Below are positions 36,698-38,944 of a stretch of DNA of 64,000 nucleotides, piece after piece. Under the pieces are notes generated by a model, which had not been told where the DNA came from, searched no databases, and was given only the letters and a program-made list of their open reading frames with translations. Made by a program: the position numbers and the translations under genes. Every line of letters starts with the position of its first letter. Position 1 is the stretch's first letter. This DNA is from Planctomycetota bacterium (GTDB taxonomy: Bacteria > Planctomycetota > Phycisphaerae > Phycisphaerales > UBA5793), in the NCBI GenBank assembly GCA_963205185.1, contig CAUJHZ010000072.1:1-64000 (forward strand). Direction: 5' to 3'.

Positions 36698-36884
36698 GAC
36701 GGGCTCCTTTCTGGTCCGGTCGCGCGGTGGGCGCCGGACTTGTGCGGCAGGAATGTATTCGCGACACATGCATCTTAATATTGGATCGGCCACTTCGCGC
36801 AACGGCCGCGCAACAACCGGGTCTTCCTGACTGCTCCGAAACGCGAGAAGGTGCGGCGAAAACTCTGGGAGCGCCCGCCACGCG

Positions 36885-36946
36885 ACAGGGCGATCGACGG
36901 GCAGACTGAACGAAGCACTTGTCGCGCCCGCGTGGTCTTGCGGGCG
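36885..36946 (+). repeat. 62-base direct repeat, copy A
   Basis: Identical to the copy at 38189-38250 except for one base (GGGCAGACT against GGGCCGACT). It contains a hairpin CGCCCGC/GCGGGCG (36925-36931 with 36940-36946). It lies 45 bases before the ATG of the small membrane gene at 36992. Confidence 0.85.
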
Positions 36947-36991
36947 GAATGCCGCGCTCGAGCCCGGCGATCTGCTATCCTTTGCAACGCG

Positions 36992-38125: not shown

Positions 38126-38188
38126 CGTTGAGATCGATAAGCCGGGTGCCGTGGATTGACCGATATCCCTGCGAGGACGGGCCGTGCC

Positions 38189-38250
38189 ACAGGGCGATCG
38201 ACGGGCCGACTGAACGAAGCACTTGTCGCGCCCGCGTGGTCTTGCGGGCG
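38189..38250 (+). repeat. 62-base direct repeat, copy B
   Basis: A 61/62 match to copy A, in the same orientation, with the same internal hairpin. It lies 63 bases after the stop of the 160-residue gene and about 30 bases past the hairpin that ends rnpB. Confidence 0.85.
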
Positions 38251-38282
38251 CAAAGCAGCCCTTCAAACCACGCGCGCACCGA

Positions 38283-38311: not shown

Positions 38312-38590
38312 CAGTGAACGGTCGGCAGCGGATCGTAAGCCGAGTTCTGTTCCGCGCTGGCCTGCTCCTTGACGGGGGCTCGTGGCCGGCGCGGGACGAT
38401 CATTTCTCTGCCCGGCGCGTTGCCGCGACGGGGCGTGAAAGCGCCGAAGCGCCCTCACGCAGCGGTCTACCCGTTCCCATCGGCCGGACCAGCCGGGAAC
38501 TGTGCGACCTTGCACGCGGTGGGGTTTGCCGTGCCCCGATTGTCACCAATCGGGCGGTGCGCTCTTACCGCACCTTTTCACCCTTGCCTC

Positions 38591-38659
38591 CCCCGCCACT
38601 AAACCGACTCGCTGCGCCAATCAGGCTGATTGTGCCACCGGGTCGGTTTAGTGGCGGGG
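38591..38659. repeat. Palindromic element 1 inside rnpB
   Basis: An 18-bp perfect stem (38591-38608 with 38642-38659) with a nested hairpin CAATCA/TGATTG in its loop. It shares the outer ten bases (CCGCCACTAAA), the CGA, and the TCGCTGC loop start with element 2. It sits where the apex of helix P12 is expected. Confidence 0.8.
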
Positions 38660-38706
38660 TCGGCGGTGTATTTTCTGTGGCACTGTCCCTGGCCCGCGAC
38701 CGTCTC

Positions 38707-38771
38707 CCGCCACTAAATCGATTCGCTGCATTGCCGAGGCTGCCAGCGCCAACGGATCGATTTAGTGGCGG
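38707..38771. repeat. Palindromic element 2 inside rnpB
   Basis: A 16-bp perfect stem (38707-38722 with 38756-38771). Compared with element 1, two bases differ in the left arm and both are matched by changes in the right arm, so pairing is preserved. It sits near the expected P9 helix. Confidence 0.8.
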
Positions 38772-38944
38772 AACTTGTTCGAGCCGGTGGGTGTTACCCA
38801 TCACCGTGTCCTGCCGTGCTCGGACTTTCCTCCCCGGAAGCGTGCTCCCGGAGCGATCGTCGCATCCGCGGCGACATGAGATAATAGTCGCTCCGCGCTG
38901 CGCTGGTTCGCAGCAGCCGCGCCCTGGCCTCGATACACTGTGGC

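Follow-up and report, generated by a model that had tools for sequence, protein, structure and literature searches.

Two palindromic hairpins in a planctomycete RNase P RNA as probable members of a mobile element family found in several structured RNAs

Introduction

The RNase P RNA gene (rnpB) of a Planctomycetota genome carries two long, perfectly paired hairpins that resemble each other, which raises the question of whether they are ordinary extensions of P RNA helices or copies of a palindromic element that spreads between sites. The gene lies in a 64,000-nucleotide stretch of contig CAUJHZ010000072.1 (hereafter the window), and its initial annotation, made from the sequence alone, left both readings open. 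Two kinds of hairpin insertion in bacterial RNA genes offer precedents. Rickettsia palindromic elements (RPEs), as two reviews (PMC2229807, PMC10969869) describe them, are small palindromic elements (Ogata 2000, 2002), and they are reported in Rickettsia tmRNA and RNase P RNA (Delihas, PMC2229807, citing Ogata 2002). Intervening sequences of 23S rRNA occupy helices 9, 25, and 45, where a long stem replaces a small tetraloop hairpin; known examples are excised by RNase III, leaving an rRNA that is fragmented but working (PMC4990558).

Results

The window rnpB has the core of a class A RNase P RNA, covering model positions 1–367 of 367 in RF00010 (E 7.7e-58; Table 1). The RNA is enlarged, as annotated, with a measured 554 nt rather than the approximately 580 nt first estimated. 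Alignment to RF00010 places element E1 (69 nt) as an insertion in P12 and E2 in P9, the two sites predicted at the outset, and coordinates and folds bear out the two perfect stems of 16–18 bp. Both elements share one architecture, a perfect outer stem enclosing a smaller inner hairpin, which in E1 is centred on CAATCA GCC TGATTG; in E2, a U.G and a U-A pair flank the 16-bp stem on the outside. Folded singly on the rnpB strand, E1 reaches -51.7 kcal/mol (z -9.2) and E2 -39.9 kcal/mol (z -6.3), values that no shuffled sequence equalled, and both hairpins are present in the fold of the whole P RNA.

Table 1. Positions of the RNase P RNA gene and its elements in the window
Feature	Position	Strand	Details
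rnpB, class A RNase P RNA, 554 nt	38320..38873	-	RF00010 184 bits
E1 (P12)	38591..38659	-	arms 38591-38608 and 38642-38659; 18 bp perfect outer stem
Inter-element P RNA, part of P10/P11 region, AGTGCCACAGAAAA	38660..38706	-	conserved with congeners (alignment)
E2 (P9)	38707..38771	-	arms 38707-38722 and 38756-38771; 16 bp perfect outer stem

Aligned without gaps over 65 nt in the same orientation, E1 and E2 differ at 16 of 65 positions and are identical at 49 (75%). Four of the differences lie in the arms and form two compensated pairs, as had been noticed from the sequence; the interiors agree at 21 of 33 positions, likewise in the same orientation (shuffle p 1e-5). The P RNA that separates them is conserved with congeners; E1 and E2 are separate units and not a single insert. 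The peptide reading PPLNR ... RFSGG mentioned in the initial annotation corresponds to an existing ORF, but this runs antisense to rnpB and is not a gene; in that same frame, two copies elsewhere sit in genuine reading frames.

Comparison with related rnpB loci indicates that both hairpins are additions. Whereas the P RNA of four congeners measures 446–450 nt and that of the other genus of the taxonomic family 513 nt, the window RNA exceeds both. In the four congeners, P9 is a short UUCG hairpin (GGCGC-UUCG-GCGCC or close), and the P12 region between fixed anchors spans 29 nt, versus 76 nt in the window. The alignment shows the old P9 and P12 hairpins replaced, not split, by E2 and E1. Outside the elements, the window P RNA is identical to that of its nearest congener at 417 of 426 positions (98%). 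On this comparison, both E1 and E2 arrived on the branch of this species, probably separately and as different family members. Across the order, P12 varies from 13 to 89 nt between the anchors; the upper value belongs to the rnpB of genome G013 (L020), whose long P12 is of unrelated sequence and gives no match to the family model.

The two hairpins belong to a family with arms CCGCCACTAAAYCGR / YCGRTTTAGTGGCGG and a usual span of 62–100 bp, bordered by at least two more base pairs that differ between sites. When 85,000 species genomes were scanned with the pattern CGCCACTAAA N35-60 TTTAGTGGCG (allowed span 55–80), 17 stretches matched, against about six expected by chance on our own estimate. 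Eleven lie in Candidatus Muproteobacteria RBG_16_65_34 (G562), two in the Planctomycetota MAGs B28T1B8 and B3D1T2, and one in a MAG submitted as Vicinamibacteraceae PLA1. These matches share features that the pattern did not demand, namely an extra outer C/G pair, a Y-C-G-R continuation, and a span of 62 bp (63 in the window). Stretches in Spirosoma (L064), Muribaculaceae (L061), and Pseudoalteromonas (L070) are left uncounted; they score 18–25 bits with the model described below and may be chance matches, and two of them nonetheless have spans of 61–62 bp.

A covariance model built from the Candidatus Muproteobacteria copies only (R3) recovered both held-out window elements, E1 with 53.6 bits (E 1.3e-11) and E2 with 45.5 bits (E 2.1e-9). 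Since R3 was built without the window elements, the link between the window and the Muproteobacterium is independent of model training. R3 also found the further copies described below in genome G003, in 23S rRNA, and in P12 and P3 of other rnpB genes, and it gave no match in 35 further rnpB loci from the order. A model termed R1 matched in five of 400 genomes of the window's order, and family matches occurred in four of 194 genomes around the Muproteobacterium. Across copies the outer 11 bp are nearly invariant and the inner pairs variable, and the arms of L131, L134, L138, and L153 have drifted with compensation. Changes on both sides were seen in seven of 18 stem pairs, a count reached by none of 500 shuffles; as the sequences were chosen for pairing arms, this count speaks for compensated variation rather than as proof of the structure.

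Within the window's own genome, exact searches with the arm pair returned only the two rnpB elements, and the idea of a feature peculiar to rnpB was dropped when the covariance model found a third, diverged copy in 23S rRNA (G000:C53:150428-150500, L153). In three species of another genus of the order (L055, L069, L129), a copy lies at the same place near the 23S 5' end; by comparison with the E. coli sequence, we take this site, including that of L153, to be helix 9. In one of these species (G642), a further relative of the family forms 23S helix 45 (L055 2544-2630, arms CCGCTACTAAA). At E <= 1, all three copies of the window genome lie in RNA genes and none elsewhere; genomes G001, G002, G004, and G005 gave no copy at that threshold, although rRNA genes may be missing from MAGs.

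Two copies in the congener G003 fall within coding sequence. One (L131) lies in frame within a large ORF with a methyltransferase domain, where it encodes the peptide PPLN...HSVAG. The other (L125) covers the stretch where a phage portal gene and a capsid/protease gene overlap, and IMG/VR relatives of the portal protein (92% and 82% identical) have the same junction without the element, about 10 nt in place of about 70. This junction directly documents the site both with and without the element, and places one copy on a phage-like contig. An exact-pattern scan of IMG/VR found no record with the element, and a single plasmid search and a single phage search for it returned nothing relevant. The contig that carries L125 together with the portal and capsid/protease genes comprises 8455 bases (WYBR01000005.1). 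It comes from the MAG submitted as Vicinamibacteraceae PLA1, whose genome-based placement is the window's genus; name and placement thus disagree, and the order of that placement also holds MAGs submitted as Planctomycetota. A third phylum, apparently represented by the Vicinamibacteraceae match (L067), was dropped on this account, because the match lies on the same contig as G003:C18.

Candidatus Muproteobacteria RBG_16_65_34 holds about 20 copies, most of them 62 bp long and mainly intergenic. Four are longer (94–100 bp): one forms the P3 helix of rnpB, two make up P2 in each of the two aptamers of a tandem glycine riboswitch (L119, Rfam), and the fourth adjoins the 5' end of a tRNA gene. 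Among genomes fetched as relatives of this organism, G770 also has an rnpB P3 copy (the P3 loci confirmed by Rfam are L120 and L138), and G910 has a copy in rnpB P12 (L134, Rfam) and one in a SAH riboswitch (L139, Rfam), the latter with a weak element score of 27.7 bits. The P3 element is thus present in G562 and G770 and not in G910, and the P12 element in G910 and not in the other two. Because G910 has an ordinary P3 helix and G562 an ordinary P12 helix, presence varies between related genomes. These searches of the window's own and related genomes, which the initial annotation had proposed, favour its suggestion of a spreading palindromic element, with copies in 23S rRNA, in the Muproteobacterium, and in relatives of both organisms. 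They speak against its other suggestion, an ordinary P RNA extension, for which there should have been no further copies in the genome and the same two helices in all relatives; neither is the case.

Several details of these copies deserve mention. Two adjoin tRNA genes: L118 1005-1104 immediately precedes a 5' end, and L135 1501-1556 immediately follows a 3' end. A 42-nt copy in G770:C191 (L133 1501-1542), with a 4-nt loop (CCCCGCTACTAAATCGG CTTG CCGATTTAGTAGCGGGG), resembles a minimal form of the family. Many of the 62-bp copies of the Muproteobacterium (L057, L059, L062, L065, L066, L068) lie within a longer repeat with palindromic flanks cgtcc/ggacg and look as if carried inside another repeat, and a 13-bp host palindrome (gtcgggttacgcc/ggcgtaacccgac) has L054 in its loop.

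Discussion

We consider it likely that E1 and E2 both belong to a non-autonomous family of palindromic mobile elements that are moved in trans and survive as dispensable outer hairpins. An enzyme supplied in trans would move the elements between sites, with the nearly invariant outer 11 bp as its putative recognition part, while the pairs further in and at the very outside, variable but still matched, would preserve the hairpin. The scattered distribution and the one phage-borne copy suggest transfer between lineages, perhaps by phages. In the gene of a structured RNA, an element may survive where it replaces a dispensable outer hairpin, because the transcript then forms one long helix and the catalytic or ligand-binding core is untouched. 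In this species, one element would have become P9 and one P12, displacing the short hairpins still present in the four congeners. Their perfect stems are plausible RNase III substrates, as in 23S intervening sequences, so that the core may hold together a mature P RNA that is nicked or fragmented.

A purely local origin, in which P9 and P12 lengthened within rnpB and gene conversion or template switching copied one onto the other without any mobile element, would explain the resemblance and shared orientation of E1 and E2; it would also suit the variable length of P12 in the order, and template switching can generate perfect palindromes. The recovery of E1 and E2 by the held-out R3 model already makes such growth hard to hold. 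Other species, a proteobacterial lineage among them, have these 11-bp arms in intergenic DNA, in proteins, and in RNAs other than RNase P RNA, and both elements are absent from four congeners. Moreover, E1 and E2 are 25% apart while the rest of the gene is 2% from its nearest relative, which makes a recent in-place duplication unlikely; we regard local helix growth as very improbable. We give about as little room to a conserved functional hairpin, whose arms would bind a host protein or RNase linking RNase P, ribosomes, and riboswitches and which would have spread by selection, not selfishly. The nearly invariant outer pairs and the many copies in structured RNAs would fit such a role, but the occurrence is patchy in both sets of genomes, the arms drift with compensation, and this explanation has no place for copies in a phage gene, a methyltransferase gene, or intergenic DNA. 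A self-cleaving ribozyme (twister) was considered and dropped, as the arms are fully complementary.

Mobility itself could be that of an internally deleted version (MITE) of an ordinary DD(E/D) transposon that has CCGCCACTAAAYCG as its inverted ends and inserts anywhere, being over-represented in RNA genes only because hairpins are tolerated there. The constant inverted ends, the two size classes, the multiple copies in G562, and the phage-borne copy with its empty site all accord with this, but neither a transposase with ends of this kind nor a target duplication of constant length was found, and the inner stem pairs co-vary, which a MITE would not need. We judge this version improbable; it is a special case of the explanation preferred here and does not contradict it. 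Searches for a transposase or autonomous partner found none: arm matches in G562, itself a MAG, form pairs 62–100 bp apart, singles at contig ends, and weak singles, with no pair of transposase size. Nor was a consistent target-site duplication seen by eye at about 16 sites and the one empty site; with palindromic flanks, such duplications are hard to score.

Besides the lack of a partner, of a target-site duplication, and of matches in the IMG/VR, plasmid, and phage searches, two observations count against a mobile family. With all three own-genome copies in RNA genes, random insertion would need strong purging, and the alignment shows no clean insertion in rnpB, where the hairpin is replaced and not interrupted. 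The enrichment in RNA genes could reflect targeting or survival. A bolder reading, which we put forward only tentatively and think rather unlikely in full, is a transmissible "helix cassette": one palindromic family would preferentially take the place of hairpins on the outside of structured RNAs, namely 23S helices 9 and 45, P3, P9, and P12 of RNase P RNA, and riboswitch P2, targeting hairpins as such. The 23S intervening sequences and the palindromic elements of RNase P RNA would then be the same process, and the RNase P RNA studied here would be cut into three pieces by RNase III.

Compared with known systems, the mobile family proposed here is most readily set beside RPEs and 23S intervening sequences. 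Its members are palindromes forming long stem-loops and, like RPEs as described in the reviews cited above, occur in intergenic DNA, in frame in protein genes (L131, L125), and in RNA genes (rnpB, 23S rRNA, riboswitches); this likeness is one of kind, the comparison being by description. They differ from RPEs in being mostly 62–100 bp against about 105–150 bp and in having hosts other than Rickettsia, and also in occupying structured RNAs of several kinds, 23S rRNA and riboswitches among them, where they replace a whole hairpin. With 23S intervening sequences the family shares the sites in helices 9 and 45, the long hairpin in place of a small tetraloop hairpin, and the patchy distribution. 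An extended stem-loop at one of the classical helices is found for the family (L153; L055, L069, and L129; helix 45 of L055) and not for E1 and E2, and the family is not confined to 23S rRNA. At mostly 62–100 nt its members are too short for an S23 protein ORF, unlike the 428-nt sequence of Coxiella (PMC4990558). MITEs such as RUP, ERIC, and Correia elements (PMC2229807, PMC10969869) are similarly short, non-autonomous, and multicopy per genome, with inverted-repeat ends, and differ in the mobilising transposase and constant target duplication that were not found here. The family also recalls the small palindromic repeats of REP/RAYT (REPIN) systems. The hairpins of RAYT-linked REPs are intergenic and carry a conserved GTAG, a motif that is not seen in the family arms.

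In the open-licence literature, the arm sequence appeared in no relevant paper among the matches listed, and a search for palindromic element insertion in RNase P RNA returned only a paper on fungal mitochondria; the family thus appears to be undescribed in that literature. What is new is that a single family takes up 23S intervening-sequence helices, three RNase P RNA helices, riboswitch hairpins, and sites in protein genes in two distant lineages. RPEs and 23S intervening sequences have so far been treated as separate oddities, and here one family spans both types of site and a phage gene. Its conserved arms, covariance model, and empty site provide a handle on the way in which essential RNAs acquire hairpin insertions. 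The family also leads to the prediction of a bacterial RNase P RNA that may function in fragments.

The window contains a further repeated sequence near rnpB. A 102-nt direct repeat occurs at 36857-36958 and 38161-38262, in intergenic DNA before and after two small ORFs upstream of the gene. The two copies are 84% identical with an identical 41-nt core and contain the inverted repeat CGCCCGCGTGGTCTTGCGGGCG, possibly representing another repeat family of this genome.
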